From a virus: DNA of 24,087 nt. The notes below the pieces were generated by a model. That model did not search any database and was not told where the DNA came from. It saw nothing but the letters and a program-made list of their open reading frames with translations. The first letter of the stretch is position 1, and each line of letters starts with the position of its first letter. Location: IMG/VR virus record IMGVR_UViG_3300023216_000815, positions 1-24,087 of that record; one strand, given 5' to 3'. Both the position numbers and the translations under genes were made by a program. Of the stretch, positions 2,168 to 23,176 are shown one piece after another.

Positions 2168-2202
2168 AAACTCCGGGGTTGGCCTTGACCCCGGAGTTTT
2201 TT
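2168..2202 (+). terminator. Rho-independent terminator after the GP88-like operon
   Basis: AAACTCCGGGGT (2168-2179) pairs perfectly with ACCCCGGAGTTT (2188-2199), giving a 12-bp stem with an eight-base loop. The stem runs into a T tract (2197-2202). This is a strong intrinsic terminator for the 781-2125 genes. Confidence 0.95.
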
Positions 2203-2205
2203 ATT

Positions 2206-2265
2206 GGGACCTGCGAAGAGCGGCAGATCATCTTTTCCTTAAGGTCCCAGGGAGCTCGTGCCGCT
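2206..2265. repeat. Two interlocked inverted repeats around post-terminator repeat copy B
   Basis: GGGACC (2206-2211) pairs with GGTCCC (2243-2248), and AGCGGC (2219-2224) pairs with GCCGCT (2260-2265). The two arms cross (A-B-A'-B'), the order of an H-type pseudoknot. The shared motif GATCATCTTTTCCTT (2226-2240), copy B of the post-terminator repeat, sits in the middle. The element lies between a terminator and the next promoter, so if it acts as RNA it is transcribed only by read-through; it may act as DNA instead. Confidence 0.5.
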
Positions 2266-3327: not shown

Positions 3328-3350
3328 CCTATATATACATATCCTAATAA

Positions 3351-3391
3351 AAAGACTCGACACCCGGTTTCCCGGTGCCGGGTCTTTTTTT
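3351..3391 (+). terminator. Rho-independent terminator after the methyltransferase/zinc-protein unit
   Basis: A long imperfect stem pairs AAAGACTCG and CACC on the left with GGTG and CGGGTCTTT on the right (one mismatch, one G-T pair). The loop is C/G-rich and the stem is followed by a run of seven T ending at 3391. It closes the 2350-3327 unit. Confidence 0.88.
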
Positions 3392-3400
3392 GTGGTCCTC

Positions 3401-3415
3401 GATCATCTTTCCCTT
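3401..3415 (+). repeat. Post-terminator repeat, copy C
   Basis: GATCATCTTTCCCTT starts ten bases after the T run of the 3351-3391 terminator. It differs from copy B at 2226-2240 by a single base. All three copies in the window share this position behind a terminator. Confidence 0.6.
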
Positions 3416-3474
3416 GCGGCCCTGCGGGTAGTTGCGGGTCGTGCGGGTGGTCGTCGGGGCGCCCAAGGCCGCAA
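3414..3474. repeat. Perfect 8-bp inverted repeat enclosing three GCGGGT copies
   Basis: TTGCGGCC (3414-3421) and GGCCGCAA (3467-3474) are exact reverse complements. The 45-bp interval has three direct GCGGGT copies at 10- and 9-bp spacing, about one helical turn, the usual layout of protein-binding iterons. It may be a replication or regulatory site, or a structured RNA element; nothing visible decides which. Confidence 0.5.
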
Positions 3475-3611
3475 AACCGGGGCATTCGGACCCAAGCCCT
3501 CGCTTGAGCCGATGGCCTCGATTTTGGCCTCTGGCTGTTGGGGCCGTATGAGCATGAGCCGGTGGGTTCTCGTGGCCTTGACTATAAATTATAAAAGGGG
3601 CAATAAACTAG

Positions 3612-3686
3612 ATGGTGTATTCTAGGTATCTCCAGATGTATTTATCAATAAATCGATATAAAGACGAAGTACAAGAAGGTAAATAG
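3612..3686 (+). CDS. Possible 24-codon leader peptide (low confidence)
   Basis: An ATG at 3612 opens a 24-codon frame ending in TAG at 3684-3686, giving a basic, Tyr-rich peptide (starts MVYSRYLQMY). AAAAGGGG lies about eleven bases upstream as a possible ribosome site. It stops 3 bp before the -35 box of the 3690 promoter, and elsewhere in this window promoters sit right behind or over a stop codon. The length is too short to be convincing by itself. Confidence 0.2.
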   Translation: MVYSRYLQMYLSINRYKDEVQEGK

Positions 3687-3689
3687 TTA

Positions 3690-3718
3690 TTGACTTGGGG
3701 CTATCAAGACTATAGGAT
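3690..3718 (+). promoter_or_regulatory. Sigma70-type promoter for the lipoprotein/HTH gene group
   Basis: TTGACT at 3690-3695, 17 bp, then TAGGAT at 3713-3718; TATAGG at 3711-3716 with a 15-bp spacer is an alternative -10. The -35 flank TTGACTTGG is shared with the promoters at 2286, 8282 and 11756. The leader to the next gene is about 100 bases, much longer than behind the other promoters. Confidence 0.7.
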
Positions 3719-3828
3719 TGAATAAGGTAGTGTGGATGGGTGGGTGATAGAAGGATTCAAGCCTACTACTGTAAGTATGCCTTACCTATAAGACCTTTGT
3801 GGTTATGGTTACTTATGGTTCTGAGTGT

Positions 3829-4482
3829 ATGGTTATGAATCATATCCTTATGGTTATTATCCTTATGATTGGTATTGGTATAATAGGTTGTACTGATACC
3901 CCGCCAGAGATTCCTATACCTACTCCGGTGGTCCAACCTGTTCTTGATGAACGGGTCATGGTTATGGAATCCTTGACCCAATTCAATCAGACCGGCAATC
4001 TATATATCCTGATCCTGATGGGTACGAATGAGATTTATGAACTGAATGATTATATGGTTTCTGATACCAGTAGATATCATGTCTCCTATGTACTCTCTAG
4101 GATGATAGGTCTAAGTCTTAACCTTTATAAAGATGGTATAACTAATTGGAACCCCCCGGAAGATAGTAAGTATTACGATAGATTGATAGAGATTAAAGAG
4201 GCTGAACTATATCGGATAAAACACTTTGGGGAGTTAAACGATATGATGTTATTAACATTACCGATAGAAAACGATAAAGCACTCGAAGGGGTGCGCCAAA
4301 AATTTGTTGAATGGAAGGATGATTCAAGAAATCAAATCCCTATGAACCTTCAGAATGAAATCTTGAAAGAATTAAGCATCGAACCAGATGAAATTGATTT
4401 TTTGTATGCCGTACCAGACAAACCACTACCCACATTACCACCGATGCCATTAGATGATCAGAGTCCCGGTACGCGTGGTTGA
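3829..4482 (+). CDS. Putative lipoprotein, unknown function (about 217 aa)
   Basis: The N-terminus is a hydrophobic segment rich in Ile and Met (ILMVIILMIGIGIIGC) ending in Gly-Cys, which resembles a lipoprotein signal with Cys21 as the lipidated residue. A Pro-rich linker follows (TPPEIPIPTP). The rest is mostly helical and charged, with a Pro-rich C-terminus (PLPTLPPMPLDD). The start is unclear: in-frame ATGs at 3805, 3829, 3835 and 3850 and a GTG at 3799 are all possible, and none has a clear ribosome site; the 5' end contains several copies of TTATGGTT. No positive charge precedes the hydrophobic core, which weakens the signal-peptide reading. A host-surface role such as superinfection exclusion is possible but is inference. 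Confidence 0.6.
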   Translation: MVMNHILMVIILMIGIGIIGCTDTPPEIPIPTPVVQPVLDERVMVMESLTQFNQTGNLYILILMGTNEIYELNDYMVSDTSRYHVSYVLSRMIGLSLNLYKDGITNWNPPEDSKYYDRLIEIKEAELYRIKHFGELNDMMLLTLPIENDKALEGVRQKFVEWKDDSRNQIPMNLQNEILKELSIEPDEIDFLYAVPDKPLPTLPPMPLDDQSPGTRG

Positions 4483-4533
4483 TTTAATATTAGAAAAGGA
4501 GGAATAAATAACTAGGAGATTTAAAAAATAATA

Positions 4534-4878
4534 ATGAATGATAATACAAAAGGATTTGATATTCCATCAGAAATCAAAGAACAATTAAATAAATACATTG
4601 GTTCTGAGGTTTTGGAATTTTTAAAGACATGGGCTGAATTAACTCGAAAATCATTGGAAGCAAACAAAGAAGTTCTCTTTAATTGTCTTACCGTCGATAT
4701 ACTAGAGGGACATATACTGTGTCGTTTCTGTGGTGACGGGATCCCTAATTGGAGACAAGAAAACTCTAGAGAACATAAGAGTGAATGTCCAATGAATGCT
4801 ATTACAGACATATTGGACACAGTGAGAAAAATGCATAAAGATTTAAACGAAACCATTGAGAATAAAACTTTAAATTAA
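4534..4878 (+). CDS. Hypothetical protein with a CCHC-type zinc motif (114 aa)
   Basis: A mostly helical, charged protein. Its centre holds CRFC (about 63-66) and, after about 17 residues, His and Cys in HKSEC, together a C-C-H-C zinc-site pattern. Both flanks look amphipathic and could form a helical dimer. The ATG at 4534 lies 14 bases behind TAGGAG (4514-4519), rather far. A second and stronger site, AAAAGGAGG at 4494-4502, has no usable start codon behind it. A+T content is higher than in the methyltransferase genes. Function unknown. Confidence 0.65.
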   Translation: MNDNTKGFDIPSEIKEQLNKYIGSEVLEFLKTWAELTRKSLEANKEVLFNCLTVDILEGHILCRFCGDGIPNWRQENSREHKSECPMNAITDILDTVRKMHKDLNETIENKTLN

Positions 4879-4893
4879 AAAGGGGTGGTAGGA

Positions 4894-5790
4894 ATGCAAA
4901 GTCCAAATCAAAATCATCTTATCTTAGAGATGGATGAACAAGACAAAATCAAGCTTGGTAAACGAAGGCCGGGAGTCCATCAACAAGATAGGTTAAATAG
5001 GGAGCATGAAAAAGCAATGTCAGGTCAAGAGGTCCAAACAAATAAATACGGAAGTGGGATAGACATTGATTCCCATCACAAGGAAAGTGCAGACCCATTT
5101 CCTCACACATGTAGATATTATCGTGGATGTTTCACTGACCCACTTACGGCAATGGAGATGTATCTAGATAACGCCGTTCAGAACAAAGCTCACTTTGACG
5201 ATATACATCCACTGACAATAGATGAAGAACACTTCTATCTAACCATCTACCGCCAAAACCCCAATGGGAAGACTGTGCATGAACTAGCTATCCTCTACGG
5301 ACGCTCTGAGGACACGATTAAGCAGGTTCTAAGCAAGAACAGTATCAATGACATCCCAAGATGGGGAAGACGTAGTAAAGAGATAGAAGACCTGCATCAG
5401 CGAATTAGAATGAACCGGGCAGCAATCGTCTATGACTGGAATGTGATGGTCCAATACGCTACACTCGAACCGATAGAGCCTACCTTTTCTATCCCTACCA
5501 GTGTAGAATCTATTCAGGGGCAGAACTACCTAACAGGTAACCAACCCGACATTCTCAGCCAGATGCAAAATGGCCTCACCGCCGGATCCCAACTTCTTGA
5601 GCAATACATCGCTTTAAAGGAATGGAAGGTCGAAGCAGAAGAACGAGAAAAAGGATACCAAGAGCGAATCCAAACTCTTCAAGAGTACGCTCAGAATCTA
5701 GATAAACTGGTTACTCACTTCACTGGAAATTACGAGAAACTAGTCCAATCTGAATCCGATTTGGACGGAGATACTCCCCCTACACTGTAG
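4894..5790 (+). CDS. HTH and coiled-coil protein, possible DNA-binding phage protein (298 aa)
   Basis: I start at the ATG at 4894, which has AAGGGGTGG ahead of it; a GTG at 4885 would add three residues. The N-terminal 70 residues are polar and probably disordered. Residues about 126-148 (GKTVHELAILYGRSEDTIKQ) look like a helix-turn-helix of the kind in small terminase subunits and regulators. Residues about 232-275 are a long charged helix likely to form a coiled coil. HTH plus coiled coil would suit a small-terminase-like or replication-initiation protein, but I see no large terminase beside it. It is the last gene before the structured noncoding stretch 5791-6070, a candidate binding target. 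Confidence 0.62.
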   Translation: MQSPNQNHLILEMDEQDKIKLGKRRPGVHQQDRLNREHEKAMSGQEVQTNKYGSGIDIDSHHKESADPFPHTCRYYRGCFTDPLTAMEMYLDNAVQNKAHFDDIHPLTIDEEHFYLTIYRQNPNGKTVHELAILYGRSEDTIKQVLSKNSINDIPRWGRRSKEIEDLHQRIRMNRAAIVYDWNVMVQYATLEPIEPTFSIPTSVESIQGQNYLTGNQPDILSQMQNGLTAGSQLLEQYIALKEWKVEAEEREKGYQERIQTLQEYAQNLDKLVTHFTGNYEKLVQSESDLDGDTPPTL

Positions 5791-6070
5791 ACGTAGAACC
5801 GGGGTTCAACCTCCCAACCGTGATAGACTCGGTGAGTCCTAAATTCCTTCTAGGGAGGATTTTAGGGACATCCTATCGCCACTACCCTTAAAGGGTACAT
5901 TTTAAGTATCTGCGGGGCGTTCTAGGGGTATGCATGTTTCCCCCTTACGCATACGATAGTGGCTGGGCATACAAGGTTGATAATGGGTGTCACTAGTATC
6001 CTTTCTAGGATGGCATCCGCCCCCTTTAAATCCAATTTCATCCAATTTTCAAATTGGTCTGCTAAAGTAC
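5791..6070. other. Noncoding, hairpin-rich 280-bp region
   Basis: No convincing coding frame crosses this stretch. It contains hairpins GACTC/GAGTC (5826-5838), CCTAAA/TTTAGG with an extended inner stem (5838-5866), TACCC/GGGTA (5883-5897), GTATGC/GCATAC (5928-5954), ATCCT/AGGAT (5998-6011) and CCAATTT/AAATTGG (6042-6057). A 7-bp helix GCCACTA (5878-5884) with TAGTGGC (5957-5963) would enclose the central ones, and GGGGCG/CGCCCC (5914-5919, 6018-6023) could add another. No T run marks an intrinsic terminator. It may be a structured RNA, a control region, or a packaging or replication site; I do not recognise a known RNA family. Confidence 0.5.
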
Positions 6071-6099
6071 TTGACTTAGACCTTAGTAGGTGGTAAAGT
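6071..6099 (+). promoter_or_regulatory. Sigma70-type promoter for the 6134-8285 gene group
   Basis: TTGACT at 6071-6076, a 17-bp spacer and TAAAGT at 6094-6099. The -10 is weaker than average, but spacer length and the TTGACTTA flank match the family. The predicted leader to the ATG at 6134 is about 27 bases and includes a strong ACGGAGGT ribosome site. Confidence 0.72.
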
Positions 6100-6133
6100 T
6101 ACTTAGTAATCAAAAAACACGGAGGTCCACCGA

Positions 6134-6391
6134 ATGGCGACTACTAGCAACACTTCTGTCCTAGCCAATGCAGTCAAACTACTGAAAGAGTGCTACGGGC
6201 AAATGGGAGCTGAACCTGATATGGAAACAGATGGGTTTGGTGAACTCATTAATCCAGCTTCTGAAGAACTCTTTGAAAGTTTAGATAACTTTCTCAAAGA
6301 TATCACTGGACTCACTGGCAAAGATTTTCGGACTTGGGTTCTGTCTGAGGATCTCGATCAAAATTCAAAAAATGAGGAACATTATTACTAA
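6134..6391 (+). CDS. Small acidic hypothetical protein (85 aa)
   Basis: First gene behind the 6071 promoter, with a strong ribosome site (CACGGAGGT) shortly before the ATG. The 85-residue product is acidic and predicted helical, with Ala/Leu-rich helices in the first half (LANAVKLLKECYG). I see no metal site, membrane segment or known motif. Its position at the head of an operon and strong initiation signals suggest high expression early in that transcription unit. Function unknown. Confidence 0.68.
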   Translation: MATTSNTSVLANAVKLLKECYGQMGAEPDMETDGFGELINPASEELFESLDNFLKDITGLTGKDFRTWVLSEDLDQNSKNEEHYY

Positions 6392-13760: not shown

Positions 13761-14033
13761 ATGATTGAAGTTCAACTACGAGATGCTTGTTTTTCTTGCA
13801 ATGGAAGGGGCACCTTTCGTAGCAAAGAGGTAATTTCTTCAATGTGTGCAGATTGCGAGGGCTTGGGGTCAATTTATACTTGGATATCTATTGAAGAATT
13901 AAGTAATATGACGGCTGAAATTCAATTACAAAAAATAGAAAGATCCAAATTCCCATCGATTGAGGAAAATATATTTCAAAACCCTTTCTCAACAGATAAT
14001 GATTTAAATATAACCCCAAATCCGAATATTTAA
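13761..14033 (+). CDS. DnaJ-type zinc-finger protein (90 aa)
   Basis: Two CxxCxGxG repeats, CFSCNGRGTF at about 10-19 and CADCEGLGSI at about 29-38, are the zinc-binding repeats of the DnaJ central domain. A short hydrophobic helix follows (YTWISIEEL). There is no J-domain, so it is not a chaperone; isolated two-repeat proteins of this form are common in phages with unknown roles. The tail is polar, Asn- and Pro-rich. AAGGAG lies seven bases before the ATG, one of the stronger ribosome sites in the region. Confidence 0.75.
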   Translation: MIEVQLRDACFSCNGRGTFRSKEVISSMCADCEGLGSIYTWISIEELSNMTAEIQLQKIERSKFPSIEENIFQNPFSTDNDLNITPNPNI

Positions 14034-14047
14034 GGAAGGTCGAATAA

Positions 14048-14731
14048 ATGACTAGCAAACGAATCTATAAGGTCACATTAACAGGTTGGGTGGTTAAGAA
14101 TGAAAATGATTCCGAGGTCAATGAATGGACCAAAGAATCTATTCTCGATGCAATAGTTGGTGAACAGTTAATGGTTAATTTCATCGACAGCAATGACATG
14201 GTAGTCACTCCAACTAGGTCAGATGTTGTCCCTGAAAAACGTAAGCCAGGCCGTCCCCCTAAGGTAAATAAGACAGAGGCCGAAGATGACAAAGCTAAGG
14301 CACTAAAATATGCTGCTGTATATGGTGCAGGAGATAAAAAACTCGAAGAGTTGGAAGAAAAGTGGGATGGAATCATCCAAGAAGCAAATGTGGATAATAC
14401 CGATAAGTATCCAACCGATCCTGCACAAGAGGGACGAGATGCAGTTAAAGCTGACGAAGAATTTGAGGAACTGGGAAAATTAATACTCGCAAGTCAACAA
14501 CCAGGTACTAATTCTCAAGACCCAGATGGGCCGGTCTATGATGAATCAGAAGTAATACCCGGAGTCGCTAATACAGTTGGTCAGAACTTGGCACAAGAAG
14601 CGTTAGATTTAATTGAAGCAAAGGATGAGATAGACAAACGACAGGCTGATGAATCTGATGGGCCATCCCCATTGGTAATGGAATTCGAGGGCGATGATGA
14701 AGAGGCCGATGATTCAGAGATGTCTTTATGA
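14048..14731 (+). CDS. Acidic protein with an AT-hook motif (227 aa)
   Basis: The N-terminal 55 residues look like a small strand-rich domain (YKVTLTGWVVKNE). Then comes EKRKPGRPPKVNK at about 63-75, a canonical AT-hook core (GRP flanked by basic residues) that binds the minor groove of A+T-rich DNA. The remaining 150 residues are helical to disordered and strongly acidic, ending in GDDEEADDSEMSL. The same motif type occurs in the proteins at 16135 (three copies) and 19520. AAGGAAGG is the ribosome site. Its stop overlaps the ATG of the third HTH-zinc paralogue (ATGA). Confidence 0.7.
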   Translation: MTSKRIYKVTLTGWVVKNENDSEVNEWTKESILDAIVGEQLMVNFIDSNDMVVTPTRSDVVPEKRKPGRPPKVNKTEAEDDKAKALKYAAVYGAGDKKLEELEEKWDGIIQEANVDNTDKYPTDPAQEGRDAVKADEEFEELGKLILASQQPGTNSQDPDGPVYDESEVIPGVANTVGQNLAQEALDLIEAKDEIDKRQADESDGPSPLVMEFEGDDEEADDSEMSL

Positions 14732-18294: not shown

Positions 18295-18487
18295 TATTAA
18301 AGAGTTCCGCAAACTTTTGAGATTCGATGATATATCCCTCTAAATGTTCCTCAGGATATTTAAGCCGGATTATACATTTTAAACAAAGTCTTCCATGATG
18401 GTTCCAATCATTTAAATGTTCTTCATGGTGGATTGGATATATCAGCATTCGGTGGCAAATAGCACAATCAAGGACAAATCCCTGCAT
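18287..18487 (-). CDS. Small zinc-ribbon-like protein (66 aa)
   Basis: Last gene of the minus-strand group. The ATG at 18487 gives 66 residues; a GTG at 18535 would add 16 but overlaps the upstream gene by 32 bp. Two Cys pairs, CAIC at 8-11 and CLKC at about 36-39, bracket a His-rich segment (HHEEHLNDWNHH), a zinc site that resembles the Cys/His frame of HNH proteins, though no full HNH signature is present. The TAG stop overlaps the end of the SNF2 gene on the other strand. Function unknown. Confidence 0.6.
   Translation of the reverse strand: MQGFVLDCAICHRMLIYPIHHEEHLNDWNHHGRLCLKCIIRLKYPEEHLEGYIIESQKFAELFNII
18299..18318. terminator. Weak candidate bidirectional terminator between convergent operons
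   Basis: AAA and AGTT (one bulged G) can pair with AACT and TTT across a five-base loop, giving a seven-pair hairpin within the 3' end of the minus-strand gene. It begins 5 bp after the stop of the SNF2 gene. The stem is A+T-rich and there is no long T run, so termination here is only a possibility. Confidence 0.2.
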
Positions 18488-21262: not shown

Positions 21263-21645
21263 TACGGCAATCCATAAGTATTAGGTTCTCGATCTTCAGC
21301 ATCCGGTCCACCAATCGCTGACTGCTCATTCTTAATTTCTTGTGTAGGACGTTTAGTTTCTTGCATCTTTTTAGCGGCAAGAATAGCGTGTATTGAATTT
21401 TGAAGTTCAAAGAGAAGAGAGTTACCATACTCCATCTTCTCTAAATCAAGGATTAAATTATAAATATCTAAAGCCGGACCCGGTTCCATTCCAGCGAGAA
21501 CAGGTTCAAATTCTTCTTCTGATTTGTATAAATAGTCATGTAAATCAGGATGATGGGCCTGATCGAGAGAATGCCAACGATCATAGCCATCATGCCGATG
21601 GTGACCATCTTTCTGTAGCAACTTAGGTCGCCCGGTTTTAGCCAT
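21262..21645 (-). CDS. Hypothetical protein with His/Asp-rich N-terminus (127 aa)
   Basis: The first 45 residues are basic and full of His, Asp and Tyr (MAKTGRPKLLQKDGHHRHDG), with a short half-AT-hook (TGRPK). A helical middle follows (LDIYNLILDLEKMEYGNSLL; LQNSIHAILAAKKM), and the end is polar. The ATG overlaps the end of the upstream gene by 8 bp. I do not recognise a family. A metal-binding role for the His-rich tract is possible. Confidence 0.58.
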   Translation of the reverse strand: MAKTGRPKLLQKDGHHRHDGYDRWHSLDQAHHPDLHDYLYKSEEEFEPVLAGMEPGPALDIYNLILDLEKMEYGNSLLFELQNSIHAILAAKKMQETKRPTQEIKNEQSAIGGPDAEDREPNTYGLP

Positions 21646-23176
21646 TTATACCCACCACATCTAACATCTCATCAACATAGACTAACCCAGACTCATGTGA
21701 AAGAAGTATTTCAATAGATTCATCTACTAAATACTGCTGTGATTTCTTCAATTCATCTGTGCCCTCTTCACCAGCCGTTTCAGGCTTAGAAGATTTAATC
21801 TTATTCATTCGTTTCTTTGCAACTTCAAGCCATTTAGGATTGTATTCTTTGTGATCCTTAGCATCCGCCTCTGAAACCTTGAAGAATCGTTCTATATCAC
21901 CTTTCAGAATTACGGCTAATTTCTTGTAATCAGCCTCGTCTCCCTTCGGACCAACCTTACTCATAAAGAGATGATTTTCAACTATATTAGACACACGGTT
22001 AACAGTATCTTTAGGTACACCTAATTCGGTTAGAATACTCATTGTCATTTGGGCGCCCGTTTTATCGTGACCGGGGAAATGAGTATTATTATCAGTTCCA
22101 GTCTTATTTTTTCCAATATCATGGAATAAAATAGCTAGATTTACAATCGCATCAGTACTAGCTGCATTTTTAAGAGCTGTAATCGTATGTTTCCAAACAT
22201 TAGTCTGTTTGTGATTCTTGCCCCGTTGCTTGGTTTCTTCCATCGCAACTAAATCTTTTGAGATAAATTTAAGCTGATCGTTATCCGCTAAAAATTGTAA
22301 CCCAATCCAAGACTTTTCAGTCTGCATTATCTTAACCAGTTCAAACCCAATACGATGCTTCTTAACCCCTGATAATGCCTCAGAGTTAGCCTTTAAACCC
22401 TTCAAAACAGATGGATGGGCTTTAATAGGAAAATCGGCTAGAAATCTAGCACCACGCAAGATTCTAGTCGGATCTTCTTTAAAAGATTTAACACTATCAT
22501 TGTTAGGGGCTCGTAGCCACTTTAATTTGATATCTTCCATGCCTCTAGTTGGATCATAAAATTGACCTGTAACAGATTGAGCAACAGCATTAATCGTAAA
22601 ATCTCTAGTTCGTAGATTATTAAGAAGTTCATCCGGTGTAGTTGATATTAAATCAACTTTCATCCCGCCAACCTTAAACTGTAATCTCGAATGAGAATTA
22701 CTTCTCTCTGTGAACTCAATATTTATCTGCTTCAAGACTTCCTTTGCTTCCTCTAATGAAATAAGGGCAACTAAATCTATATCTTTAGAGACTTTCTTAA
22801 AGAATTTATCTCTAACAAAACCACCTACAAAATAAATAGGCAGATAATTCCCCAACATTCGAATCCAGTCAGACGCACGTTTTCGTTGTTCTAACTGTTC
22901 AGCAACCTTTGGATTAACCCATGCAGTTCTAGCACGTTCAAAAGTCCTACCGCCTCGGTGTACTAATTCATAAATCTTAGTACGCACCTTTCCAGTAGGA
23001 TCTTCTTTTGCTTCCTCTGAACGAGGTTTTCCCTCTTGCTCAAATTGCTCTGCACGGGGGTCAGAGGCCGGGTCAGACCTTTCAGTTTGAGCCTGACGAT
23101 ATTCAGCTACAGCTTGCTTTGCAAGCGTATAGTCCAGTCGCAATAAAAGTTTATCTACGTTAGACAGTTCTGTCAT
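21638..23176 (-). CDS. CCA-adding tRNA nucleotidyltransferase / poly(A) polymerase-like protein with HD domain (512 aa)
   Basis: Residues about 110-250 form a class II nucleotidyltransferase head: VGGFVRD (117-123), the metal-binding DID (132-134), RDFTINAVA (191-199) and EDPTRILRGARF (234-245), all hallmarks of CCA-adding enzymes and poly(A) polymerases. Residues about 325-405 are an HD phosphohydrolase domain: NVWKHTI, FHDIGK (351-356), HFPGH (366-370) and ENHLF, as in the bacterial CCA enzyme. An N-terminal extension of about 105 residues is not part of that family; it has a disordered acidic-polar part and then basic segments. The enzyme could repair tRNA 3' ends during infection. CCA and poly(A) addition cannot be told apart here. 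No tRNA gene is in the window. Confidence 0.85.
   Translation of the reverse strand: MTELSNVDKLLLRLDYTLAKQAVAEYRQAQTERSDPASDPRAEQFEQEGKPRSEEAKEDPTGKVRTKIYELVHRGGRTFERARTAWVNPKVAEQLEQRKRASDWIRMLGNYLPIYFVGGFVRDKFFKKVSKDIDLVALISLEEAKEVLKQINIEFTERSNSHSRLQFKVGGMKVDLISTTPDELLNNLRTRDFTINAVAQSVTGQFYDPTRGMEDIKLKWLRAPNNDSVKSFKEDPTRILRGARFLADFPIKAHPSVLKGLKANSEALSGVKKHRIGFELVKIMQTEKSWIGLQFLADNDQLKFISKDLVAMEETKQRGKNHKQTNVWKHTITALKNAASTDAIVNLAILFHDIGKNKTGTDNNTHFPGHDKTGAQMTMSILTELGVPKDTVNRVSNIVENHLFMSKVGPKGDEADYKKLAVILKGDIERFFKVSEADAKDHKEYNPKWLEVAKKRMNKIKSSKPETAGEEGTDELKKSQQYLVDESIEILLSHESGLVYVDEMLDVVGING

Follow-up and report, generated by a model that had tools for sequence, protein, structure and literature searches.

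The region analysed here lies in a 24,087-base virus record (IMGVR_UViG_3300023216_000815), the whole of which is referred to as the window. Within it, a 343-base gap at 5791–6133 separates the ORF at 4885–5790 from the ORF at 6134–6391 and contains a hairpin-rich element followed by a promoter-like site (Table 1). A preliminary description took the genome to be gapless and argued from this that the stretch must have a function; in fact, the + strand block is interrupted internally by three gaps of more than 200 bases (224, 471 and 343), at 2126–2349, 3328–3798 and 5791–6133 in a gene set chosen by hand from the ORF list. The ORFs inside the gap are short and none is common in full to G001 (IMGVR_UViG_3300025267_000047; 38,037 bases), the sole record found to carry the element (93% identity, same neighbours). 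The window and G001 also differ by single-base indels in the 5' half of the element, and a coding role for the gap was rejected on these two grounds. A replication origin at the element was likewise rejected, as the GC skew does not turn there and has its extreme at 18304 of the window.

Table 1. Features of the element and its surroundings in the window. Probabilities are mean pair probabilities, given for the window and for the homologous region of G001.
Feature	Position	Strand	Details
Intrinsic terminator	2168–2199	+	Ahead of the promoter-like site at 2286
Intrinsic terminator	3362–3383	+	Ahead of the promoter-like site at 3690
TTGACT-17-TAnnnT promoter-like site closest upstream	3690–3718	+	Presumed transcript start, putatively linked to the element
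ORF upstream of the element	4885–5790	+	301 aa; the HTH/coiled-coil gene of the preliminary description
Proposed RNA domain	5801–6023	+	Closed by GGGGT (5801–5805)/GCCCC (6019–6023); 0.81 window, 0.80 G001; invariant
Long-range helix TCAACCT/AGGTTGA	5806–5980	+	5806–5812/5974–5980; 0.98 window, 0.95 G001; 7 of 7 pairs invariant
Long-range helix CCCA/TGGG	5813–5967	+	5813–5816/5964–5967; nested within TCAACCT/AGGTTGA; 0.91 window, 0.88 G001
Arm	5822–5877	+	GATAG (5822–5826)/CTATC (5873–5877); GTG (5832–5834)/CAT (5869–5871)
Upper stems of the arm 5822–5877		+	CCTAAA (5838–5843)/TTTAGG (5861–5866); TCCTTC (5845–5850)/GGAGGA (5854–5859)
Inner domain	5878–5963	+	Closed by GCCACTA (5878–5884)/TAGTGGC (5957–5963); 0.88 window, 0.91 G001; invariant
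Inner hairpin	5885–5916	+	CCC (5885–5887)/GGG (5914–5916); GGGTAC (5893–5898)/GTATCT (5906–5911)
Rewritten-stem hairpin	5917–5950	+	Stem AGGGG/CCCCT in window, ACAGGG/CCCTGT in G001; GCG/CGC base in both
3' hairpin GGGTGTCACTAG/CTAG-GA-TGGCATCC	5985–6018	+	12 invariant pairs; outer part 0.97 in both
Last hairpin CCAATTTCA/TCAAATTGG	6032–6057	+	No T-run behind; 0.50 window (one mismatch), 1.00 G001
Promoter-like site TTGACT-17-TAAAGT	6071–6099	+	TG ahead of the second hexamer; abuts the element on its 3' side; consensus match only
ORF downstream of the element	6134–6391	+	85 aa; opens the next transcription unit; 90% identical in G001

Scans of viral contigs yielded G001, while two further records, G002 and G003 (IMGVR_UViG_3300009108_000002; 141,341 bases), were reached through the window helicase, G003 being recovered a second time with A3 and A4. 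By BLASTN, the DNA-pattern matches in viral contigs other than those from the G001 contig are chance, as is the one match from the genome contig scans, which gave no relative. Searches for homologues among phage records by DNA and by the 301-residue protein, and among plasmid records by DNA, found none; the helicase matches 805 phage records, all at less than 60% identity and too distant to serve for the element. G003 keeps relatives of the ORFs flanking the element (301 aa, 142 aa) and has at the corresponding place other genes, a short hairpin (z −3.55) and then a promoter-like TTGACT-17-TATACT. A search for the element by BLASTN gave at best an unconvincing match in G003 (E 0.147) and none in G002, and covariance model R1 run on the window, G001, G002 and G003 matched in the window and G001 only. 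Collecting related phages, as the preliminary description had proposed, has thus provided one homologue with the element and one distant relative without it.

No second full copy of the element was found in these four records by the covariance model or, beyond a 20-bp piece, by BLASTN. In a comparison of window 5997–6023 with G001 (L004:1490–1520), these 20 bases recur exactly within the 3'-terminal part of a 150-aa ORF, the longest exact repeat among the G001 tiles. Immediately after them in G001 comes an 11-base piece whose place in the element is upstream, making this a rotated copy. The product of the upstream ORF has relatives at 93% identity in G001 and at 34% over the alignment in G003 (46% over residues 66–186); it has no match in Pfam or PHROGs and, with a pLDDT of 41, the structure predicted for it is unusable. 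Its proposed role as a partner of the element finds no support, since the protein relative is kept in G003, where neither BLASTN nor the covariance model finds the element.

The two other large gaps each show the order terminator, 12-mer ATCTTTTCCTTA and promoter-like site, the 12-mer in 3328–3798 being the variant ATCTTTCCCTTG at 3405, whereas at 5791–6133 the 12-mer is absent within two mismatches. The form TTGACT-17-TAnnnT occurs at six + strand sites in the window (2286, 3690, 6071, 8282, 11756 and 16073) and recurs in G001 and G003; between 5700 and 6200 the site at 6071 is the only one, with none directly upstream of the element. Exact copies of ATCTTTTCCTTA are present at 725–736 and 2230–2241 (+) of the window, with three in G001, none in G002 and 12 in G003, clustered within 55.8–66.8 kb. 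All copies lie on one strand in each record, the reversed control pattern gave none, and 13 of the 19 listed copies (variants included) have a promoter-like site 34–118 bases downstream. As sequence features, the terminator, 12-mer and promoter-like site are a recurring cassette. Beside the terminator at 2168–2199, a second hairpin (GGGACCT/AGGTCCC, 2207–2249) encloses the 12-mer, in a region with a z of −5.30. The noncoding stretch 3384–3590 is G+C-rich relative to the 41% G+C of the record, and this gap has diverged between the two phages.

Five non-overlapping perfect hairpins (stem of at least 5 bp, loop of 3–10, at least two G or C per arm) are found in 280 nt of the region, compared with a mean of 1.29 ± 1.01 in 500 dinucleotide shuffles (P = 0.004). 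The same level is reached by two of the 341 tiles of the window, and these two may overlap the element region. The reported hairpin density is therefore borne out, but the count is five and not six. On the + strand, the whole region of the window folds at −89.9 kcal/mol (z −2.14; six of 200 shuffles as good), compared with a z of −0.97 on the − strand (28 of 200). The G001 homologue reaches −99.6 kcal/mol on the + strand (z −4.23; none of 200), where the centroid equals the best structure, and a z of −2.51 on the − strand (four of 200). Folding energy on the + strand is thus better than that of shuffled controls, a comparison suggested in the preliminary description, modestly in the window and clearly in G001. 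Tiles of 120 nt starting at 5801, 5901 and 6001 have + strand z values of −1.45, +0.32 and −1.75 and lie outside the best 25 of the 480 such tiles in the window. Since these local tiles are ordinary, it is the long-range architecture that stands out.

The predicted architecture is one of nested long-range helices enclosing an arm and an inner domain, with further hairpins on the 3' side. Most named helices reach a mean pair probability of 0.7 or more in each sequence; H11b falls below this in both, and H4, H5 and H12 do so in the window alone. Mean pair probability is at least 0.67 in both sequences except, in the window, for the base of the arm at 5822–5877 (0.37, compared with 0.94 in G001), the helix next to this base (0.33) and the last hairpin. 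Three one-sided changes fall in this arm, and pairing is preserved at each through G-U. The 7-bp helix GCCACTA/TAGTGGC of the preliminary description is present at 5878–5884/5957–5963, is predicted to pair with high probability in both sequences and bounds a domain that contains two hairpins in each. The second of these (5917–5950) is the most telling piece of the predicted fold, as its loop is kept while its stem is partly rewritten: the loop TATGCATGTT (5929–5938) is identical in both sequences, a two-sided change is located at alignment columns 152/178 (window 5921/5947) and the window has a mismatch at columns 153/177.

Of the 164 pair cells given by the 82 named pairs in the two sequences, 162 are standard; a single pair has changes in both partners, and in three others one partner is changed. 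When one strand is shifted by 1 to 3 columns, the share of standard pairs falls to 40–51%; a column-shuffle control (256 of 500) is uninformative, as the alignment has two rows. The structure was picked with both sequences in view, and mapping of the folds onto simulated mutants (1000) is therefore the fairer test. When the G001 fold is mapped to the window on the + strand, four of ten changed pairs are broken, compared with 7.6 ± 1.9 in the simulations (P = 0.046, ratio P = 0.014), while mapping of the window fold to G001 gives P = 0.060 (ratio P = 0.153). The corresponding − strand mappings give seven of ten broken (P = 0.51, ratio P = 0.466) and P = 0.005 (ratio P = 0.071). Alifold energies against 150 simulated mutants give P values of 0.127 and 0.013 for the + strand and of 0.367 and 0.000 for the − strand, the last being that from the window. 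The structure conservation index gives P values of 0.133 and 0.147 on the + strand and 0.13–0.21 over both strands. The simulated-mutant tests do not cleanly separate the + from the − strand.

The element differs between the two phages at 17 of 272 sites and the fourfold sites of the neighbouring genes at 10 of 107 and five of 34, so that by this measure the element appears only mildly more conserved. The preliminary description had proposed a search for compensatory changes, and the one two-sided and three one-sided pairs are what two sequences at 93% identity provide; for this reason the covariation evidence is thin. A conserved + strand fold has moderate support, chiefly from the fold of G001 and from the pairs kept through G-U. 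The nested architecture common to the window and G001 is suggestive and, with two sequences, falls short of proof. The proposal of a structured RNA has moderate support: the folds of both sequences, the + strand preference, the shared helices and the one two-sided compensation speak for it and the thin covariation against it.

On these comparisons, the intergenic stretch of about 270 bases, as RNA, probably adopts a compact, branched fold that one close relative keeps, and it is plausibly a new but narrow RNA element. The reading tentatively preferred, at a likelihood just short of even, is that 5801–6057 is the folded + strand 3' end of the upstream mRNA. Because the two other large boundaries carry a terminator and a promoter-like site, the element lies where the transcript of ORFs 3799–5790 should end. 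That transcript would start at the promoter-like site at 3690, carry these ORFs and end in the element, whose bulk would insulate the two units and protect or process the upstream mRNA; a stable small RNA might also be released from this 3' end. The reading takes position, predicted folds and shared helices from the sequence and extends from them to transcription, strand, processing and function. It is favoured by the + strand z values (−2.14 and −4.23, compared with −0.97 and −2.51 on the − strand), but no canonical terminator with a U-run is present at the 3' end of the element. The element thus resembles an intrinsic terminator in its end-of-block position and differs from one in that its 3' hairpins have no U-run. 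A scan for an intrinsic terminator at the unit end gave a single weak match in the middle of the element (5883–5897), with 0.5 expected by chance.

A free-standing phage RNA acting in trans (regulatory, decoy or assembly), with the loop TATGCATGTT as the contact in, for example, a kissing dimer, is a possible but doubtful alternative. The conservation of this palindrome-bearing loop above a partly rewritten stem would fit such a role, although a 6-nt palindrome is not rare in a loop of this length, no promoter-like site lies directly upstream and Rfam has no match. Large multimeric phage RNAs with kissing loops do exist, and ROOL and GOLLD are large structured phage RNAs of obscure function (PMC12286853). 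The element is like these in being a sizeable phage fold with a loop that might form kissing contacts; it is much shorter, has no match in Rfam and lies in a window in which no tRNA genes were found. The more specific idea of a new, orphan class of phage RNA is itself doubtful. Such RNAs, of about 220–260 nt, would be made from operon ends and would act in trans, possibly as dimers; their marks would be long-range helices stacked on one another, an inner domain that is closed off and a palindrome-bearing loop that is conserved while its stem changes.

The element might instead act as DNA, either through protein-binding inverted repeats (e.g. TACCCTTAAAGGGTA at 5883–5897) upstream of the site at 6071 or as a recombination or shuffling cassette like those of T4-type phages. 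This is unlikely, even though the element abuts the promoter-like site, the other boundaries carry a terminator and ATCTTTTCCTTA, mostly with a promoter-like site downstream, and the 20-bp piece recurs in another ORF of G001 beside the rotated 11-bp piece. The 12-mer is absent at the boundary of the element, the GC skew has no turn there and the G-U-type changes in the long-range helices favour a + strand RNA over DNA in one of the two mappings. Among the nearest known counterparts are the PeSL (promoter early stem-loop) cassettes of T4-type phages, reportedly described by Arbiol in 2010 and Comeau in 2014. In these cassettes, a stem-loop between genes immediately precedes an early sigma-70-type promoter, and copies are repeated and shuffled in the genome. 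The position of the element is similar, with hairpins extending to 6057 and TTGACT-17-TAAAGT, itself a consensus match only, at 6071–6099; repeated copies beyond the 20-bp piece were not found in the window, G001, G002 or G003. The likeness to PeSL boundary cassettes (PMC4503421) is one of position, with a stem-loop placed just ahead of a sigma-70-type promoter where two gene blocks meet. In form the element differs, having no typical terminator hairpin and a predicted 220-nt branched fold with long-range helices instead.

That the fold has no function and consists of clustered small inverted repeats, conserved through the closeness of the two phages, is quite unlikely. Such an origin would agree with the ordinary local z values, the absence of the element from the distant relative G003 and the covariation from two sequences only, weak relative to simulated mutants, but it sits poorly with the z of −4.23 for the same fold in G001, the hairpin density (P = 0.004) and the one double compensation. 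The preliminary description had also read two pairs of mutually exclusive helices as a sign of a switching RNA. The complementary strings exist, but they hardly pair: GACTC/GAGTC has an ensemble probability of 0.013 in the window and is absent from G001, while GTATGC/GCATAC has a probability of 0.001 in the window and is reduced in G001 to TATGC/GCATA with 0.000. These near-zero values leave switching without support. A promoter-like site at 6071–6099 separates the element from the gene that follows, so that the element would not be that gene's ordinary leader. A riboswitch or leader attenuator serving the downstream genes is thus very unlikely despite the complementary alternatives, given their probabilities, the absence of one from G001, the promoter-like site downstream of the element rather than ahead of it, for which this candidate was rejected, and the lack of any Rfam riboswitch match. 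A self-splicing intron was also rejected, since the ORF ahead of the element is intact, its alignment with the relative in G003 covers nearly the full length, and no Rfam intron matches.

A search of the window with the Rfam 15 covariance models, which include ROOL, GOLLD, riboswitches, introns and 6S, gave no match at the gathering score, and at E ≤ 10 only an irrelevant CRISPR-repeat match at 6070–6098. Antiterminators of the HK022 put kind are nascent RNAs that bind RNA polymerase and suppress termination, and the put sites lie just downstream of early promoters. The element would resemble put RNA (PMC9378689) as a folded phage RNA that could affect transcription in cis, but it stands at the end of a unit and upstream of a promoter-like site. 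A literature search, by topic rather than by sequence, found no description of the element. From its sequence, it would be placed as a lineage-restricted 'structured phage intergenic RNA of unknown function' and would be new there. If the RNA is made, phage boundaries that otherwise rely on simple terminators would gain an orphan structured element. With a single element and a relative that lacks it, this would also be a compact setting for studying what large folds do at the ends of phage mRNAs; at present it is a lead rather than a system.

Two further observations concern other parts of these records. In G001 (L004:304–1900), two extra genes (150 and 377 aa) lie between the relatives of window 13761–14033 and 14048–14731. 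The 82-aa and 150-aa genes of G001 carry a 24-bp repeat (92%) close to their ends, and the arrangement suggests that the extra genes were inserted by end homology. The ORF at 21638–23176 (−) of the window combines a poly(A) polymerase/tRNA nucleotidyltransferase head with HD domains.
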